From Candidatus Tumulicola sp. (GTDB lineage: Bacteria; Vulcanimicrobiota; Vulcanimicrobiia; Eremiobacterales; Eremiobacteraceae), in contig DATNNM010000012.1 of NCBI GenBank assembly GCA_035601835.1, positions 62,001 to 126,000 of the forward strand: a stretch of 64,000 nucleotides of DNA, in the 5' to 3' direction. The notes below the pieces were generated by a model, which worked only from the letters and a program-made list of their open reading frames with translations, was not told the DNA's origin and searched no databases. Shown here piece by piece: positions 56,523-63,582 of the stretch. The stretch's first letter is position 1. Each line of letters opens with the position of its first letter. The position numbers and the translations under genes were made by a program.

Positions 56523-57839
56523 TCACAACGAGAGGTACTGATCCAGCTCCCACGGGTGCACGCGCGTCCGGTACTCTTCCCATTCGGCCAACTTGGCCTC
56601 GCGAAAGCGATGGTAGCTGTGATCGCCAAGCGCGGCGCGCACGACCGCATCGCCATCGAGCGCGAATACGGCTTCTTGCAGCGACGCTGGCAATTGCTCG
56701 ACGCCCAGATTGGCGCGTTCGTCGTCGGAGAGCTGGGCCACGTTGAGCTCGATCGGATCGCCGGGCACGAGTTTGCGCCGTACGCCGTCCAAGCCGGCCT
56801 TGAGGATGCACGCGAGCGCAAGGTAAGGATTGCAGGACGGATCAGGCGAGCGCAGCTCGACGCGCACGCCGCCGCGCTCTTCGGGCACGCGGACGAGCGA
56901 ACTCTTGGCGCGCTGCGACCACTGCACGAAGGACGGCGCATCGTAACCAGGCACGAGGCGCTTATACGAGTTGACGGTCGGGTTTGTGACCGCGGTAAAG
57001 CCGCGCGCGTGCGCGAGCAAGCCGCCGACGAATCCCAGCCCGGTCTCCGACAAGCGCAAGGGATCGCTGTCGTCGTGAAACGCGTTGCGCCCGTCTCGCT
57101 GGAAGTAGTGCGCCAGGTGCAGGCCGCTACCGTCTTGGTTCGGGAGCGGCTTGGGCATGAACGTCGCATGCAGTCCATGCCGGGCAGCCACCGTTTTCAC
57201 GACCACGCGCGCCGTCGCGATCGCATCGGCCAACGCGAGCGGATCGGTGAAGGCCAAGTCGATCTCGTGCTGTCCGTGCGAGACCTCATGATGCGTCGCG
57301 TCCACGCGGATGCCCATGTCCTCAAGCGCCAAGCTGACGTCGCGCCGCGCGACGTCGCCCCGATCGATCGGACCGAGATCGAAATACGAACCGCGATCGC
57401 TCGTCGCGGTGGTCGCTCCGCCCGTCGGGGATTGTTCGAACAGGAAGAATTCAAGCTCGGCGCCGGCGTGGACGCTGAAGCCCAGCGTGGTGGCTTCGTC
57501 GACGACGCGGCGCAGCGCGCTGCGCGTGCAGCCTTCAAACGGCGTGCCATCCGGGTTGCACACGTCGCACATGAGGCGCGCTTCCAGCGGCGCTCCGGCG
57601 ACTTCGGAGAAGACCGCAAACGTCGCCGGGTCGGGCGTCAAGCACATGTCCGCTTCTTCATGGCGCACGAAGCCTTCGATGCACGAGCCGTCGAACACGA
57701 CCCGGCCGTCGAGCGCAGATTCGAGTTCGGTCAGCGGGATCGCGACGTTCTTGGTGATGCCATGGATGTCGGAGAACTGCAAGCGTACGAAGCGGACGCC
57801 GAGTTCGCGCGCGCGCCGCGCGAGTTCGCGCTTAGTCAT
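56523..57839 (-). CDS. Glutamine synthetase, short GSI-alpha-like form
   Basis: 438 residues. FDGSCIEGFVRHEEADM matches the Bacillus-type N-domain with the feedback arginine. THHEVSHGQHEID, MPKPLPNQDGSGLHLAHYF and NSYKRLVPGYDAP give a complete active site. The adenylylation tyrosine segment is absent (replaced by LQEAVFALDGD). ATG 57839 overlaps the PucR gene stop by 4 nt. Could be a true second GS or a gamma-glutamyl-ligase of the GS fold for amine catabolism; PucR linkage slightly favours a nitrogen-scavenging role. Confidence 0.87.
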   Translation of the reverse strand: MTKRELARRARELGVRFVRLQFSDIHGITKNVAIPLTELESALDGRVVFDGSCIEGFVRHEEADMCLTPDPATFAVFSEVAGAPLEARLMCDVCNPDGTPFEGCTRSALRRVVDEATTLGFSVHAGAELEFFLFEQSPTGGATTATSDRGSYFDLGPIDRGDVARRDVSLALEDMGIRVDATHHEVSHGQHEIDLAFTDPLALADAIATARVVVKTVAARHGLHATFMPKPLPNQDGSGLHLAHYFQRDGRNAFHDDSDPLRLSETGLGFVGGLLAHARGFTAVTNPTVNSYKRLVPGYDAPSFVQWSQRAKSSLVRVPEERGGVRVELRSPDPSCNPYLALACILKAGLDGVRRKLVPGDPIELNVAQLSDDERANLGVEQLPASLQEAVFALDGDAVVRAALGDHSYHRFREAKLAEWEEYRTRVHPWELDQYLSL

Positions 57840-59083
57840 TCCTCGTCGTGCTCCATCTGCCAGATCGCCAGGGCTGTGCGCAACGACAGCTGATCGCGCG
57901 GCAAGCGCAAATCCACTTTGAGGATCTGCGAGATCTGATTCAGGCGATAGAAGATGGTATGCCGGTGCACCGAGAGCCGCTCGGCCGCCTCCTTGACGTT
58001 TTCGCCGATGTCGAAGTACAAGCGCAGCGTCTTGAGCAGATCGGTCTTGTGCTTGCGATCGTAGCCGTCGAGCGGAGCGATCTGCGATTCCGCGAAGCGC
58101 ACGAAGGCTTCGCGCTCCGCGCCCGCGTGCAGTAACGCGTAGACGCCAAGATCGGCATACAGCGTCACCGAGCCGCGGCCGTGCAGGCGGCGGCCCAGAC
58201 TCAAGCTGTGCCGCGCCTCTTCGACGGAAGCCGGTCCCTCCAGGATATCCGCATGAAACGCGCCGATGCCGCAGGTCATCGAGCGCGCCGCCGCCTGCGC
58301 GGGGACGTCGCGCACCGCGTTGGTCGCCGCCTGGCGGGCGCGCGCGACGTCCGCGACATGCCGGACCGGGATCAGCGCGAGCACCTGGCCGGCGGGCATG
58401 GCCACCGGCGGGCATACCGCTTCGGTCGGCGCCAGCGCCTGAGCCACCGCCTCGCGCGCCACGTTCGGCAGCGCGCCTTCGACGTCGAACACCGCTCCCA
58501 AAAACGCCGTAGGCAAGACGACGCCGGCTGCGCTTGCTTCATCTCGCAGCGAAGCCGCATCGGCGAAGGCACTGGAAAGATAGCTCTCCCAGAAAGCGCG
58601 CCGCACATGCGAGCGCCCGGCGCCGCGCCGGAGGCACTCGACGCTGGCCGCGCTCGCTATGATACGCAGCGCCGCGGCTAAGGGCTGGCCGGACTTCGCG
58701 CGGGTGAAAAGGGTGACGTAGCCCGGCGGGCTTTCTCCGTCACCCGGCACGGGCATCGCGGCGCACGCCGCGTGCAGGGTGGGCGACAGCGAAACGCGCA
58801 CGACGCCATTGCTGCGTCCACCCGCCTTGAAGTGCGTCGCAAACGTCGGCGGCACTTTGCCCACGCCGCCGCGCCGCTCGGCGAGCGCGAGATGCCGCCA
58901 CTGCTCGTCCTCCACCAAGACCGCGCCCTGCGCGGCATCGGCAAGCAGTTGGGCGAGCGCCTTCAGACCGCCGCCGCCGGCAATGACGCGCGCAGCCTTC
59001 TCGGAAAGCTCGGCAAGTTCGTCCGCGGTCATGTTCGTCAACCGATGTGGAGGATCGCTGTGATGAGCGAACACCATTGCCAT
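57836..59083 (-). CDS. PucR/CdaR-family transcriptional regulator
   Basis: 415 residues. N-terminal GAF-like sensing region, a central GGDEF-like CdaR segment, and the C-terminal PucR helix-turn-helix: LLKTLRLYFDIGENVKEAAERLSVHRHTIFYRLNQI split at the turn. PucR controls purine/allantoin use in Bacillus. It is translationally coupled to the GS gene and probably controls it. Start 59083 is used; ATG 59032 is an alternative. Confidence 0.88.
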   Translation of the reverse strand: MAMVFAHHSDPPHRLTNMTADELAELSEKAARVIAGGGGLKALAQLLADAAQGAVLVEDEQWRHLALAERRGGVGKVPPTFATHFKAGGRSNGVVRVSLSPTLHAACAAMPVPGDGESPPGYVTLFTRAKSGQPLAAALRIIASAASVECLRRGAGRSHVRRAFWESYLSSAFADAASLRDEASAAGVVLPTAFLGAVFDVEGALPNVAREAVAQALAPTEAVCPPVAMPAGQVLALIPVRHVADVARARQAATNAVRDVPAQAAARSMTCGIGAFHADILEGPASVEEARHSLSLGRRLHGRGSVTLYADLGVYALLHAGAEREAFVRFAESQIAPLDGYDRKHKTDLLKTLRLYFDIGENVKEAAERLSVHRHTIFYRLNQISQILKVDLRLPRDQLSLRTALAIWQMEHDEE

Positions 59084-59126: not shown

Positions 59127-59156
59127 TTGACGCGGTCGCCGACGCCGATGTAAAAT
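59127..59156 (+). promoter_or_regulatory. Promoter of the M-box RNA
   Basis: -35 TTGACG (59127-59132), 18-bp spacer, -10 TAAAAT (59151-59156); transcription would begin about 59163, at the 5' edge of the riboswitch. Confidence 0.7.
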
Positions 59157-59164
59157 CGTCGAGA

Positions 59165-59330
59165 ACAGGCCTCGTTAGGTGAGGCGTCGACACGCAGAAA
59201 GGCCGCTACCCGGAAAGGTCGAGAGACCCCAATGGGTGACCAGGCATCGCCGAAATAAGGCGATATCTAAGACGGCTAAGTTTTCGGGCTTTATGGCGTG
59301 TCGTGCCAAAACTCAACGCATGAGGACGCT
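59165..59330 (+). ncRNA. M-box (ykoK leader) Mg2+-sensing riboswitch
   Basis: Conserved blocks of the M-box occur in order: CCTCGTTAGGTGAGGC (59170-59185), GCCGCTACCC (59211-), AGAGACCCCAATGGGTGACC (59222-59241), CATCGCCGAAATAAGGCGAT (59245-59264) and ACTCAACGCATGAGGAC (59311-59327). These parallel the B. subtilis ykoK (mgtE) leader block for block. High Mg2+ compacts this RNA and favours termination. A terminator follows at 59361. It fills most of the 316-bp gap between PucR and the NRAMP gene. Confidence 0.9.
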
Positions 59331-59360
59331 GCCGGCCACGGGCCACAGTCGCGATTTCAT

Positions 59361-59399
59361 GACCGTTGAGTGCGAAAAGCGCCGGCGGTCTTTTATTAT
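59361..59399 (+). terminator. M-box expression-platform terminator
   Basis: Stem GACCG (59361-59365) / CGGTC (59386-59390), inner pairing GTGC/GCGC around GAAAA, then TTTTATTAT directly before ATG 59400. Formation would stop transcription at the start of the NRAMP gene. Confidence 0.7.
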
Positions 59400-60719
59400 A
59401 TGGCGATAGCGCAACAACCGCAAACGACGTCCGCACGCCGGCCGAGCATCTGGCGCTCTGTCGCTATGTTCTTGTCGGTGATCGGACCGGGCATCATCAC
59501 CGCCAACGCCGATAACGACGTCGGCGGCATCACCACATACTCGCTCGCCGGCGCGCAGTTCGGCTATACGCTGCTGTGGATCCTCATCCCAGTGACGGTC
59601 GCGCTCATCGTCGTCCAAGAGATGTGCGCGCGCATGGGCGCGGTCACCGGCAAGGGGCTCGCCGATCTCATCCGCGAGAACTTCGGCGTCAAGGTCACCT
59701 TCTGGGTGCTGTTGGTGTTCGTGCTCGGCAATCTCGGAAACACGGCGTCGGAATTCGCGGGCGTGGCCGCGGTCTCGCCCATATTCCAGCACTCGGTGCC
59801 CTGGCTCTCGGCGTACGTGCTCGTGCCGCTCGTAGCCGTCTTCGTGTTCACCGTGGTGACGCGCGGCAACTACCAGCTCGTCGAGAAGATATTCTTCCTG
59901 TTTTGCTTCGTGTATCTCTCGTACGTCATCAGCGGCTTCATCATCAAGCCGGACTGGGGCGATGTGATGCACCAGTTCATCTTCCCGCACTTCACGCCGA
60001 CCAAGGCCTATCTGCTGATGGCGATCGCCGTCATCGGCACGACGATCTCACCGTGGATGCAGTTCTACATCCAGTCGGCGATCGTCGAGAAAGGCATCAA
60101 GATCCAGGATTACAAGTACTCGCGCATCGACGTCGTCACCGGCTCTACCTTTACCGACATCATCGCGTTCTTCGTCATCGTGGCCTCTGCGGCGACGATC
60201 TACGTCCACAATCAACATGCCGGCGCGAGCGCGCAGATCACCGTGACCGACGCGGGGGCGCTCGCCGCGGCGCTGGCCCCGCTTGCCGGCAAGTTCGCCT
60301 CGCTGCTCTTCGCGATCGGTCTGCTCAACGCCGCTGTCTTCGCTGCGTCGATCATCCCGCTCTCGACCGCGTACTACGTCTGCGAGGCCTTTGGCTTCGT
60401 GTCAGGTGTCGACAAGCGTTTCCGCGAGGCCCCGTTCTTCTATGGCTTGTACGGCGCGCTGCTCGCGATCGGCGCGGGAGTCGTGCTGCTGCCAGGGGCG
60501 CCCCTGCTTGGCATCATCTTCTGGTCGCAGGTGCTCAACGGCGCGCTGCTGCCGGTGGTTCTGCTTATCATGTTGCTGCTGATCAACAACCGGACGCTGA
60601 TGGGCGCGTACACCAACGGGCTCCTGTTCAATATCATCGCGTGGGGCACGGTGATCATCGTGGGCGGACTCACCGTGGTCTCGACCGTGCAACTGCTTTT
60701 TCCGTCGCTCGGCGGCTAA
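59400..60719 (+). CDS. NRAMP-related magnesium transporter (NrmA/NRMT-like)
   Basis: 439 residues, about 11 helices. The TM1 metal site reads TANADNDVGGITTYS rather than the DPGN of Mn/Fe NRAMPs, and TM6 (about 210-220) reads GTTISPWMQFY rather than A-x-x-MPH. Loss of the TM6 methionine and DPGN is characteristic of the Mg2+-transporting NRMT clade (NrmA of Clostridium). Control by an M-box, a Mg2+ riboswitch, supports Mg2+ as substrate. ATG 59400 has no clear ribosome binding site because the terminator T-tract abuts it; an upstream GTG at 59370 would lie inside the terminator. Faces the PRC/MgtE_N/CBS gene. Confidence 0.9.
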   Translation: MAIAQQPQTTSARRPSIWRSVAMFLSVIGPGIITANADNDVGGITTYSLAGAQFGYTLLWILIPVTVALIVVQEMCARMGAVTGKGLADLIRENFGVKVTFWVLLVFVLGNLGNTASEFAGVAAVSPIFQHSVPWLSAYVLVPLVAVFVFTVVTRGNYQLVEKIFFLFCFVYLSYVISGFIIKPDWGDVMHQFIFPHFTPTKAYLLMAIAVIGTTISPWMQFYIQSAIVEKGIKIQDYKYSRIDVVTGSTFTDIIAFFVIVASAATIYVHNQHAGASAQITVTDAGALAAALAPLAGKFASLLFAIGLLNAAVFAASIIPLSTAYYVCEAFGFVSGVDKRFREAPFFYGLYGALLAIGAGVVLLPGAPLLGIIFWSQVLNGALLPVVLLIMLLLINNRTLMGAYTNGLLFNIIAWGTVIIVGGLTVVSTVQLLFPSLGG

Positions 60720-60725
60720 AGCTTG

Positions 60726-62060
60726 CTAGCGCGCCGGCTGGCCCGCGTGCGCATGTCGGTTACCCGAGCGCGACTTGCCGACGCGCGGCAGCATCTTACG
60801 CAGCCTTTCCGGCAGCACGACGTCGAGCGCATCGTCTACTGTGACGATGCCGTGCATGTGGCCCTCGTCGTCGACGACAGGCACGGCGACGAAGTCATAA
60901 CGCGCGATGACGGCGGCGACTTCCTCACGCGACGCGCTCAGCGGCACGCTCACGACATGCTCTTGGATGAGTTTGTCGGTGGGCTGCGAGGGATCGCTGC
61001 CGACCAAGTCGCGCAGCGACAAGACGCCCAGAAGATGCTCGGACTGGTCCAGCACGTACACGTAATACACCAGCTCCGCGTCCGGCGCGGCCTTGCGGAT
61101 GTGTTCGAAGGTCTCCCCGACCGTCAGCCCCGGCGGTACTGAGAGGAACTCGGTCGTCATAATGCCGCCGGCGGTCGCTTCGTCGTGCGCGAGCAGCTCG
61201 CGCACGTCTTTGGCCTCATCCGGCTCCATGAGATTGAGGAGCTGGCGCTGCTTGTCGGGTTCGACCTCGGCCAACAGGTCGGCCGCGTCATCGCTGCTCA
61301 TGTTCTCGATGATGTCCGCCGCGCGCTCCGGTTTCAGATCTTCAAGGATGGAGAGTTGCGTGTTGACGTCGAGCTGCTCGAACGCGTCGGCGGCGGTCTC
61401 TTCGTCGAGCGAGCTCACCAGCGACGCCTGGTCGGACGCGTTGAGTTCCTCGATGATGGCCGCCATGTCGACGGGATGGATGCGCTCGATCTTGTCGCTG
61501 GGTACGCGCAAGCGGACCGAGTCGGTGGGTCCGACGCGCGAAAGCGGCTGCACGGAATCCCAGGAGATAAGCGATCTCGGAACACCGAGGCGGGTCGAAC
61601 GCTCCAGCAAATGCTTGCTGAAGCCGCTCAGTCCGAGCCGGCGCAACAAGCCGGACGCGCCGATGTCGGCGGCGATGATGCGCAACTGGTCGCCGGCCGG
61701 CGCCAACTTGACGTCGTTCACACGGACGACCTTGCGCCCGTCGACGTCGACGATCTGCTTATCGAGGAGTTCGCGGTTGAGCAGCAGCTCGTCGTCAGCC
61801 GCCACCTTGTGCTCGGCGTCGCGCGGCGGAGCATTGAGGATCACCTCTTTGTCCGTGATGGCGCGCACCGAGGAGAACTGAGCGAAACGCATGCCGCCGT
61901 CGCGGCACTTGATGTACAGCCCGGTCACCGGCGGGAATTCCTCGCGGCCGTCCACGACGACGTCGTGCACCTTGCCGATAGGCATGCTCGAGCCCTCGGT
62001 CCACAGTTTGACCGGGCGGCCGATCAGTTCGCTGACGTACGCCTCGTGCAGTTCCACCAT
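60726..62060 (-). CDS. Soluble PRC-barrel + MgtE_N + CBS protein
   Basis: 444 residues with no membrane helix. N-terminal PRC-barrel (about 10-100; PIGKVHDVVVDG), a second barrel-like segment, the MgtE N-domain superhelix (about 195-295; IHPVDMAAIIEEL, LEDLKPERAADIIENM, DEATAGGIMTTEF) and two CBS domains (about 295-425; LLGVLSLRDLVG, MHGIVTVDDAL). In MgtE these parts bind Mg2+ and gate the channel, but the transmembrane channel is missing. Tail-to-tail with the NRMT-like gene, 6 bp apart. Possibly its Mg2+ sensor in trans. ATG 62060 follows GAGG. Confidence 0.88.
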   Translation of the reverse strand: MVELHEAYVSELIGRPVKLWTEGSSMPIGKVHDVVVDGREEFPPVTGLYIKCRDGGMRFAQFSSVRAITDKEVILNAPPRDAEHKVAADDELLLNRELLDKQIVDVDGRKVVRVNDVKLAPAGDQLRIIAADIGASGLLRRLGLSGFSKHLLERSTRLGVPRSLISWDSVQPLSRVGPTDSVRLRVPSDKIERIHPVDMAAIIEELNASDQASLVSSLDEETAADAFEQLDVNTQLSILEDLKPERAADIIENMSSDDAADLLAEVEPDKQRQLLNLMEPDEAKDVRELLAHDEATAGGIMTTEFLSVPPGLTVGETFEHIRKAAPDAELVYYVYVLDQSEHLLGVLSLRDLVGSDPSQPTDKLIQEHVVSVPLSASREEVAAVIARYDFVAVPVVDDEGHMHGIVTVDDALDVVLPERLRKMLPRVGKSRSGNRHAHAGQPAR

Positions 62061-62174
62061 AATGCCTCTTTAAGGCCATTGTAAGGGGAGGTGTCGGGAT
62101 GCGTCAACCCACAAGACCCGCGCCCTTGGTCAGTTGATGGATTGCTCCGCGAGCAATGAGCGGCTAGAGTTCAT

Positions 62175-62711
62175 CTAGTCCGGCCAAAGATCTTGAACGT
62201 GCATGCTCCAACCAGGCAGCAGCGCCGTCAGGTGCAGCGTATCTCCGTCCTTTAGAAGCTGTGCGTGACCAAGCTCGTGCACCGCGACGGTGCGCTGGTC
62301 CGGATCGATGAGCCAGGTGATCTGCGCGCCTAGCTCTCGAAGCAGCCCGAGTTTTTCCTCGAGCTCGCGTATCCGGTCGGATGGCGATTTGACTTCGACC
62401 GCGAGATTGGGAACCGCGTCCGCGAAGCCCGCGGGAAGCGTCGGCAACCGGTCTCGCGTGACGAAGGAGACATCGGGAGCGATGATGTCTCCATTCGGCA
62501 GCCTGAACCCGCCGTTTGAACCAAGGATATAGCCAAGCCTTTTCGGGTGCACCCAGGCGTTCAATCTGCTAGCGAGCATGACGGCGATGACTTCGGACAA
62601 GGCTCCCGAAGGGCTCATGATTATTATCCGGCCGTCGCGCAACTCGACGCGGCAGGCCGGATTCGCTTGCTGCACCTTGAGGAGTTCGCGCTCTGTAAGT
62701 ACCATGTGCAT
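62175..62711 (-). CDS. Uma2-family (DUF820) putative nuclease-fold protein
   Basis: 178 residues. VELRDGRIIIMSPSGALSEVI, GGFRLPNGDIIAPDVSFV and AVPNLAVEVKSPSDRI show the PD-(D/E)xK core (D...ExK). These are abundant, often multicopy proteins of unknown function related to restriction-endonuclease folds. ATG 62711 or 62705. Confidence 0.9.
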   Translation of the reverse strand: MHMVLTERELLKVQQANPACRVELRDGRIIIMSPSGALSEVIAVMLASRLNAWVHPKRLGYILGSNGGFRLPNGDIIAPDVSFVTRDRLPTLPAGFADAVPNLAVEVKSPSDRIRELEEKLGLLRELGAQITWLIDPDQRTVAVHELGHAQLLKDGDTLHLTALLPGWSMHVQDLWPD

Positions 62712-62796
62712 AAGAGAAATAACCTCACGGACTCCGTTTCCCTCCTTTCGAGCGTGCGTCAAGGGAGCAGTCCTTTTCGGGCTCGAACGCGGACCT

Positions 62797-63582
62797 ATGG
62801 AGTTCGCTCGAGTGCTCGCCGTGGCCGAGCACGCCGCGCGCGGCGCCGGCGAGCTGCTGCGTTCGAAGCTGGGCACGCACATCGCCGTACGTTCTAAAGG
62901 GCTGCGCAGCAATCTCGTCACCGAAGCCGACACGGAGAGCGAGGCCATCATTCGGAACGTCATCGCTCAGACGTTTCCGGACGACCGCATCTTAGGAGAA
63001 GAAGCAGGCGAAAGCGGCAGCCCATCGCGCGGCCGGTGGATCGTCGATCCCCTCGACGGCACCACGAACTACGCGCACGCATATCCGCTCTTCGGCGTTT
63101 CGATCGCATACGAGTACGATGGCGAACTGCGCGCCGGCGTCGTGTACAATCCGGTTTCGGGCGAGATGTTCCGCGCGCTGCGCGGCGGCGGGGCGGAGTG
63201 CAACGGCCGTCCGATCCGCGTTTCGGACGAAGACGATCTCAAAGACGCTCTGCTGGTGACTGGATTTCCGCCGCAGCGCGACAACGAAGTGTCTTCGAAC
63301 CTCGCCCCCTTCGCGGAGTTCATGCGCCGCAGCCAAGCGATCCGCCGGGATGGCTCAGCCGCGCTGGATCTATGCTTCGTCGCTTGCGGGCGCTTCGATG
63401 GGTTTTGGGAAGCCGACTTGCAGGCGTGGGATGTGGCGGCAGGCACCGTGATCCTCACGGAAGCCGGCGGCGTGGCCACCGACTATCGGGGCGGTCCGTC
63501 CGCGCTCGACGCGCGCCAGATCGTGGCGAGCAACGGAAAGATCCATCGGTCGATGCTCGAGGTGCTCGCACCGCGTGCGTGA
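62797..63582 (+). CDS. Inositol-1-monophosphatase family phosphatase
   Basis: 261 residues. Metal and catalytic motifs: LVTEADTESEAII, ILGEEAGE, WIVDPLDGTTNYAHAYP (about 85-101) and ADLQAWDVAAGTVILTEAGG. Hydrolyses inositol phosphates or related sugars/nucleotides such as PAP or FBP. ATG 62797. Overlaps the next gene by 8 nt. Confidence 0.93.
   Translation: MEFARVLAVAEHAARGAGELLRSKLGTHIAVRSKGLRSNLVTEADTESEAIIRNVIAQTFPDDRILGEEAGESGSPSRGRWIVDPLDGTTNYAHAYPLFGVSIAYEYDGELRAGVVYNPVSGEMFRALRGGGAECNGRPIRVSDEDDLKDALLVTGFPPQRDNEVSSNLAPFAEFMRRSQAIRRDGSAALDLCFVACGRFDGFWEADLQAWDVAAGTVILTEAGGVATDYRGGPSALDARQIVASNGKIHRSMLEVLAPRA

Follow-up and report, generated by a model that had tools for sequence, protein, structure and literature searches.

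What brings a Mg2+-responsive RNA, an NRAMP-type transporter and a soluble relative of the MgtE channel together at positions 59164 to 62060 of a bacterial contig fragment? The window, by which we mean the whole stretch of 64,000 nucleotides analysed, comes from Candidatus Tumulicola sp. (assembly GCA_035601835.1, contig DATNNM010000012.1, forward-strand positions 62,001 to 126,000), and an earlier note on it had proposed that the soluble protein senses Mg2+ and gates the transporter in trans. That model was already in print as speculation, because Shin et al. (2014), who described M-boxes before NRAMP-related genes and called the products NrmT, noted that most members of this group adjoin a gene for the N-terminal cytoplasmic domain of MgtE and suggested that the partner is a cytoplasmic feedback regulator of NrmT or a chaperone (PMC4072509). 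A full-text literature search, with most subscription journals beyond its reach, found no later work on the partner gene. Our reading, which we put at a probability of roughly one half, is that the locus encodes a Mg2+ uptake unit of the NrmT kind composed of two parts, in which an M-box-controlled transporter of the NRMT type would be paired with a separate soluble MgtE-like Mg2+ sensor that lowers its activity.

The M-box aptamer (RF00380) occupies 59164 to 59331 on the plus strand and matches the covariance model over its full length (cmscan, model 1–169, E 3e-31) at 135.3 bits, where the gathering score is 44; it is the sole RF00380 match in the genome. The M-box is a Mg2+ sensor in the cases tested (PMC4072509). 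The aptamer begins 7 bp past the 3′ end of a putative sigma-70-like promoter (TTGACG-18-TAAAAT, 59127–59156, plus strand, 10 of 12 positions matching), found by a consensus scan that returned two promoter-like sites in 3.4 kb against a shuffle mean of 0.7. Downstream, folding predicts an intrinsic terminator on the same strand at 59361 to 59397, with a hairpin (59361–59390) followed by TTTTATT, and the last 69 nt of the leader fold at −25.4 kcal/mol (z −2.1). The complete M-box with promoter and terminator described in the earlier note is thus real in its aptamer and accompanied by a promoter-like site and by a hairpin with a T-rich tail. Terminator-like hairpins lie 47–101 nt 3′ of the aptamer in 27 of 30 M-box leaders of the phylum examined, which suits M-boxes as transcriptional off-switches. 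A possible antiterminator on the plus strand would pair the 5′ arm of the terminator (59364–59370, CGTTGAG) with the complementary 3′ strand of the aptamer (59312–59318, CTCAACG). The aptamer strand ACTCAACG could form 8 bp with this arm (p = 0.025 by shuffling); as such pairing reaches a nominal p < 0.05 in only two of the 30 leaders, the window's among them, it is weak evidence and was rejected as a general feature.

Behind this leader lies nrmT (59400–60719, plus strand), predicted to encode an NRMT-type transporter of 439 aa from the ATG at 59400, a likelier start than the listed GTG at 59370, which falls within the terminator. The product matches PF01566 at 309 bits, and its best solved relative is EleNRMT (7qia) at 330 bits, with 41% identity across 403 aa, while every other NRAMP chain scores 89 bits or less. 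The NRMT ion site has been described as DxxG in transmembrane helix 1 (TM1) and TxxA/T in TM6, with the binding-site Met absent (PMC8806188). The window protein reads NDVGG in TM1 and GTTISPWM in TM6, giving D40xxG43 and T214xxS217 at the ion site with Ser217 in the Met position. An NRAMP homologue lacking both DPGN and the TM6 Met, as previously described, is therefore seen in part: the Met is gone, replaced by Ser, and DPGN is lost only partly, its Asn changed to Gly and its Asp kept as in known NRMTs. Ser also occupies the former Met position in most of the clade, with Ala in the close relatives L017, L109 and L128; in a tree of 53 NRMT rows, the EleNRMT branch is long and its position uncertain. 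Several relatives (L045, L046, L048, L051/L102, L053 and L100:2046-2894) encode, close to an M-box, a further NRAMP-related protein, a distant one (about 32–34% identity), with the motifs, where read, IAKNDT in TM1 and GTTVAPWQLF in TM6.

Convergent with nrmT, across a stop-to-stop gap of 6 bp (60720–60725), is the gene for a 444-aa protein (60726–62060, minus strand) with two PRC-type barrels, an MgtE_N domain and a CBS pair. The Pfam scan gives MgtE_N at 91 bits, CBS at 64.5 bits over two stretches, PRC at 24 bits and no further family; the transmembrane channel domain PF01769 (MgtE Mg2+ channel) is absent from the protein, and no hydrophobic segment is present, the 19-residue Kyte-Doolittle mean peaking at 0.99. 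These results bear out the soluble, channel-less PRC/MgtE_N/CBS neighbour that had been read from the sequence, and the protein agrees with the NrmT-associated MgtE-like fragment of Shin et al. in carrying parts of the MgtE cytoplasmic domain, lacking a channel and lying beside nrmT. Its AlphaFold2 model (predicted local distance difference test, pLDDT, 82.4; predicted template modelling score, pTM, 0.54) comprises two N-terminal parts rich in strands, a helical repeat and a pair of CBS-like domains, with an uncertain placing of the domains because of the pTM. Matches to MgtE in the PDB accompany the top Foldseek matches of the model, which are MgtE chains, and 2yvy, the Mg2+-bound cytosolic domain, reaches TMt 0.81. 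Among 30 orthologues scanned, MgtE_N and CBS occur in all and PRC in 27, and the MgtE channel is not among the seven families listed. A putative promoter (TTGACG-18-TACAAT, 62078–62107, minus strand, consensus scan) lies about 18 bp upstream of the ATG. Control of this gene by an M-box of its own, or a remnant of one, was rejected, the RF00380 search of 60600–62700 (E up to 5) returning no match.

The residues of the cytosolic Mg2+ sites Mg2–Mg7 of Thermus thermophilus MgtE (PMC5882242) and of the MgtE ATP site (PMC5529423) were located in an alignment of 58 sensor rows, at least two of which are duplicates (L002 comes from the window itself, and L044 and L086 represent a single gene). Asp is found at D91 in all 58 rows, at D95, D226 and D247 in 57 each and at D250 in 54, and the E59 position holds Asp or Glu in 56. 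The counterparts in the window sensor are D225, D257, D261, D389, D410 and D413, so that the acids of Mg4–Mg7 are present, and the plug-helix acids of Mg2 and Mg3 (E258 and D259) have no counterpart; the tail of the sensor is basic. The conservation of D247 and D250 weighs less because both fall within a stretch common to many CBS domains. As aligned, most of the Mg2+-site acids that MgtE has outside the plug helix are kept in the sensor. A function for the basic C-terminal tail was considered and dropped, because the profile matches of sensors from other phyla end before it, at about 407–424 of 430.

The pairing of the two genes was followed through 148 genomes of the phylum (Eremiobacterota), searched for NRMT, sensor and M-box. 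NRMT matches (E ≤ 1e-20) occur in 129, sensor matches (E ≤ 1e-15, MgtE channels counted in) in 131 and M-box matches in 96, and the linkage tables hold 124, 126 and 123 rows, respectively. Counted per genome, 114 have both genes, 2 the NRMT alone, 5 the sensor alone and 27 neither (Fisher p 2.6e-22); in the 91 genomes at least 90% complete, filtered on completeness with contamination unfiltered, the figures are 76, 0, 0 and 15 (p 1.8e-17). These counts are to be read with the caveat that one gap or deletion removes both genes where they are linked. The NRMT and sensor genes are almost inseparable across the phylum, in unlinked cases too, and the wider association of channel-less MgtE_N/CBS genes with NRMTs on which the earlier note had staked its model is there.

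Linkage follows a preferred order. The sensor lies within 500 bp of the NRMT in 68 of the 124 NRMT rows, 64 of them with the sensor upstream on the same strand (two overlapping by 2–8 nt) and four convergent (the window genome G000, G101, G064 and G017). Of the 124 rows, 40 have an M-box ahead of the sensor in a sensor-nrmT pair, another 42 have one up to 4 kb away on the upstream side of nrmT, and the remaining 42 have none. Stand-alone sensor matches have an M-box ahead of them in seven of 58 cases, with G087 and G093 under the Rfam cut-off and G019, at 44.8 bits, barely over it. Among 80 named GTDB loci, the best of 518 confirmed NRMT matches, 51 have the sensor within 1.5 kb (49 upstream on the same strand, one downstream, one convergent), 4 have it farther away and 25 yielded none; the convergent locus, L103, corresponds to the contig stretch of G064. 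Outside the Eremiobacterota-type loci, 42 of 59 have the sensor upstream within 1.5 kb, and in many Nitrospirota loci the two genes overlap or nearly touch. As just 9 of the 46 genomes searched from these loci have an M-box, the pair extends beyond the riboswitch. That the two are unrelated genes which happen to converge would accord with the rarity of the convergent order (4 of 124 rows, 1 of 80 loci), but it is refuted by the co-occurrence and by the shared operon in which the two genes usually lie in several phyla, and we give it a negligible chance. The genome G017 carries a second, distant convergent NRMT and channel-less sensor (L079:2953-4215 and L079:4238-5212; about 40% and 30% identity) and also two MgtE channels.

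The window genome (2.57 Mb, 97.9% complete) has no MgtE channel, CorA or MgtA-type ATPase over the cut-off; one CNNM/CorC-type protein and two further NRAMP-type matches are present. An MgtE channel exceeds the cut-off in 0 of 116 genomes of the class and in 15 of 148 across the phylum, and CorA is found in 17 and 41, respectively. From these absences, in a genome that is itself incomplete, the NRMT is likely the host's main Mg2+ importer. A sensor serving a separate MgtE channel was rejected, none being present in the genome or over the cut-off in the class. A class mostly without CorA and, over the cut-off, wholly without an MgtE channel lends itself to testing the role of the sensor.

Under the proposed two-part unit, low cell Mg2+ would leave the M-box open, its 3′ strand keeping the terminator's 5′ arm from pairing, and nrmT would be transcribed; at high Mg2+ the terminator would form and nrmT would be off. 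The NRMT would import Mg2+, on which the N and CBS domains of the sensor would close, and the closed sensor would bind the cytosolic face of the NRMT, most likely lowering its activity. As such, the M-box would set the amount of NRMT and the sensor its activity, an MgtE-like arrangement divided between two polypeptides. We infer that Mg2+ is the substrate of the NRMT, that the sensor binds it, that it contacts the NRMT and that the effect is negative; gating in trans is our best guess, and the conserved Mg2+ sites fit it. Shin et al. did not settle what the MgtE-like fragment does, and the near-obligate, partly unlinked pairing, with most of the Mg2+-site acids kept, makes a direct test worthwhile; if the sensor gates the NRMT, Mg2+ sensing and Mg2+ transport would be exchangeable modules.

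Several observations weigh against this reading. D214 is not kept, Asp falling outside the six commonest letters there in the alignment of same-phylum sensors; the ATP-ribose residue D188 is Asp in 14 of 58 rows and the ATP-ring residue F227 is Phe in 12 and Leu in 45, the window sensor itself having Asp and Phe at these positions. The TM6 Ser differs from the Ala or Thr of the published NRMT motif, and the Fisher p values ignore the relatedness of the genomes. No sensor lies within 500 bp of the NRMT in 56 of the 124 rows, and none of the 80 named GTDB loci holds a sensor-NRMT fusion, which was rejected as a direct link. According to Shin et al., NrmT needs no partner to carry Mg2+, and Mg2+ rescue was no better when Acp2976 was co-expressed with Acp2977 (PMC4072509); a brake acting at high Mg2+ could leave rescue unchanged. 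In the same report Acp2977 of Acidobacterium, encoded beside an MgtE-like gene, fully rescued a Mn2+ mutant and looks like a Mn2+ importer (PMC4072509), in line with our second rival, that the pair handles Mn2+ and not Mg2+, with the NRMT a Mn2+ importer of relaxed selectivity and the sensor responsive to Mn2+. Most pairs in other phyla are likewise in genomes lacking an M-box, but the window nrmT is under an M-box in a genome with no other known Mg2+ importer over the cut-off, and we judge a Mn2+-directed pair improbable.

The gene order bears on the main rival. In relatives, with the sensor taken as plus, the sensor, nrmT, a pucR-type regulator gene and a glutamine synthetase gene are co-directional (for example L083–L086, L090, L091, L107, L115 and L120), whereas stand-alone sensors are followed by pucR and glutamine synthetase with the nrmT slot empty (L063–L068, L071, L074 and L075) or with a wider gap ahead of pucR (L069, L072 and L073). 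The window has sensor, inverted nrmT, pucR (57836–59083, minus strand; Pfam HTH_30, synteny) and glutamine synthetase (56523–57830, minus strand; TIGR00653, synteny), and in the NRMT tree, which has several weak forks, it groups with L003 and L004, the family's other convergent rows, and with L006, which has an unlinked sensor. Because nrmT of the relatives sits co-directional in the same slot, and because of this grouping, the convergent order is best described by synteny as a local change, either an inversion in place or the return of a moved M-box–nrmT cassette. With nrmT inverted in its slot, only nrmT is under the M-box, and the sensor is left on its own putative promoter. The facing layout stressed at the outset is thus present here and incidental to the pairing, the sensor of linked relatives being mostly upstream in the same operon.

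Conserved neighbours of the sensor in the class, with or without nrmT, are genes for an IMPase, in some an aminotransferase, pucR and glutamine synthetase (window 56523–59083 and 62578–63582; L063–L075). A polyamine-catabolism reading of pucR and glutamine synthetase was rejected, the latter scoring over the cut-off as a type I glutamate-ammonia ligase (468.6 bits, cut-off 429) and under it as a gamma-glutamylputrescine synthetase. The soluble protein could instead act as a chaperone or buffer of Mg2+ (or Mn2+), or as a Mg2+/ATP reporter to another target, and be co-inherited with the NRMT through a common role in metal homeostasis without contacting it; sensors unlinked to the NRMT in many genomes and the conserved pucR and glutamine synthetase neighbours speak for this main rival, and Shin et al. 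named the chaperone alternative (PMC4072509). We regard it as possible but doubtful: pucR is beside none of the 59 loci outside the Eremiobacterota type, 42 of which have the sensor beside nrmT, and the overlapping or near-touching Nitrospirota genes suit a stoichiometric partner.

An undescribed family of 610–710-aa proteins (among them L101:1984-4029, L099:1557-3392 and L100:2916-5048) also accompanies this system; its N-terminus is of the secretion type, and three members scanned match no Pfam family. It occurs in 53 of the 148 genomes, with a copy linked to an M-box (≤4.5 kb downstream) or to nrmT (≤3 kb, same strand) in 27 of these; the copy of the window genome (L208:4001-6001; G000:C10:9310-11190) is unlinked to its M-box. 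The AlphaFold2 model (pLDDT 84.3, pTM 0.84) is rich in long strands, its Foldseek matches are mostly assorted outer-membrane barrels at 7–11% identity with low TM-scores, and the protein is a possible Mg2+ channel of the outer membrane. Mycobacterium tuberculosis offers a parallel in its M-box-controlled pe20-ppe31 operon, required for growth at low Mg2+ and low pH (PMC12810186). Quite tentatively, a single dedicated diderm Mg2+ uptake line in separate parts can be imagined, with an M-box-controlled outer-membrane barrel, an inner-membrane NRMT in place of CorA, MgtE and MgtA, and a soluble MgtE-derived sensor closing the NRMT in trans; if so, sensor and transporter could be controlled differently, which is the case in the window.

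Three known systems frame the locus. EleNRMT of Eggerthella lenta (PDB 7qia; PMC8806188) shares the ion-site Asp, Gly and Thr with the predicted window transporter, as well as the absence of the TM6 Met and the change of the TM6 His to Trp, and differs in having Ala at the former Met position, where the window protein has Ser. The cytosolic domain of T. thermophilus MgtE (PDB 2yvy/2yvx) has in common with the window sensor the MgtE_N superhelix, the CBS pair, the acids of sites Mg4–Mg7 and the ATP-site Tyr and Arg; the sensor lacks the channel and the plug-helix acids E258/D259 and adds two PRC-type barrels and a basic tail. The NrmT loci of Shin et al. (Ca_c0685, Ca_c3329 and Acp2976-Acp2977; PMC4072509), as described there, resemble the window in the M-box before an NRAMP-related gene, the MgtE-cytoplasmic-domain neighbour and the role proposed for it, whereas the window sensor is convergent, outside the M-box transcript, on its own putative promoter, equipped with PRC barrels and from another host phylum. 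To that report the present analysis adds the near-obligate pairing, the Mg2+-site acids of the sensor, the importer absences and the local rearrangement.

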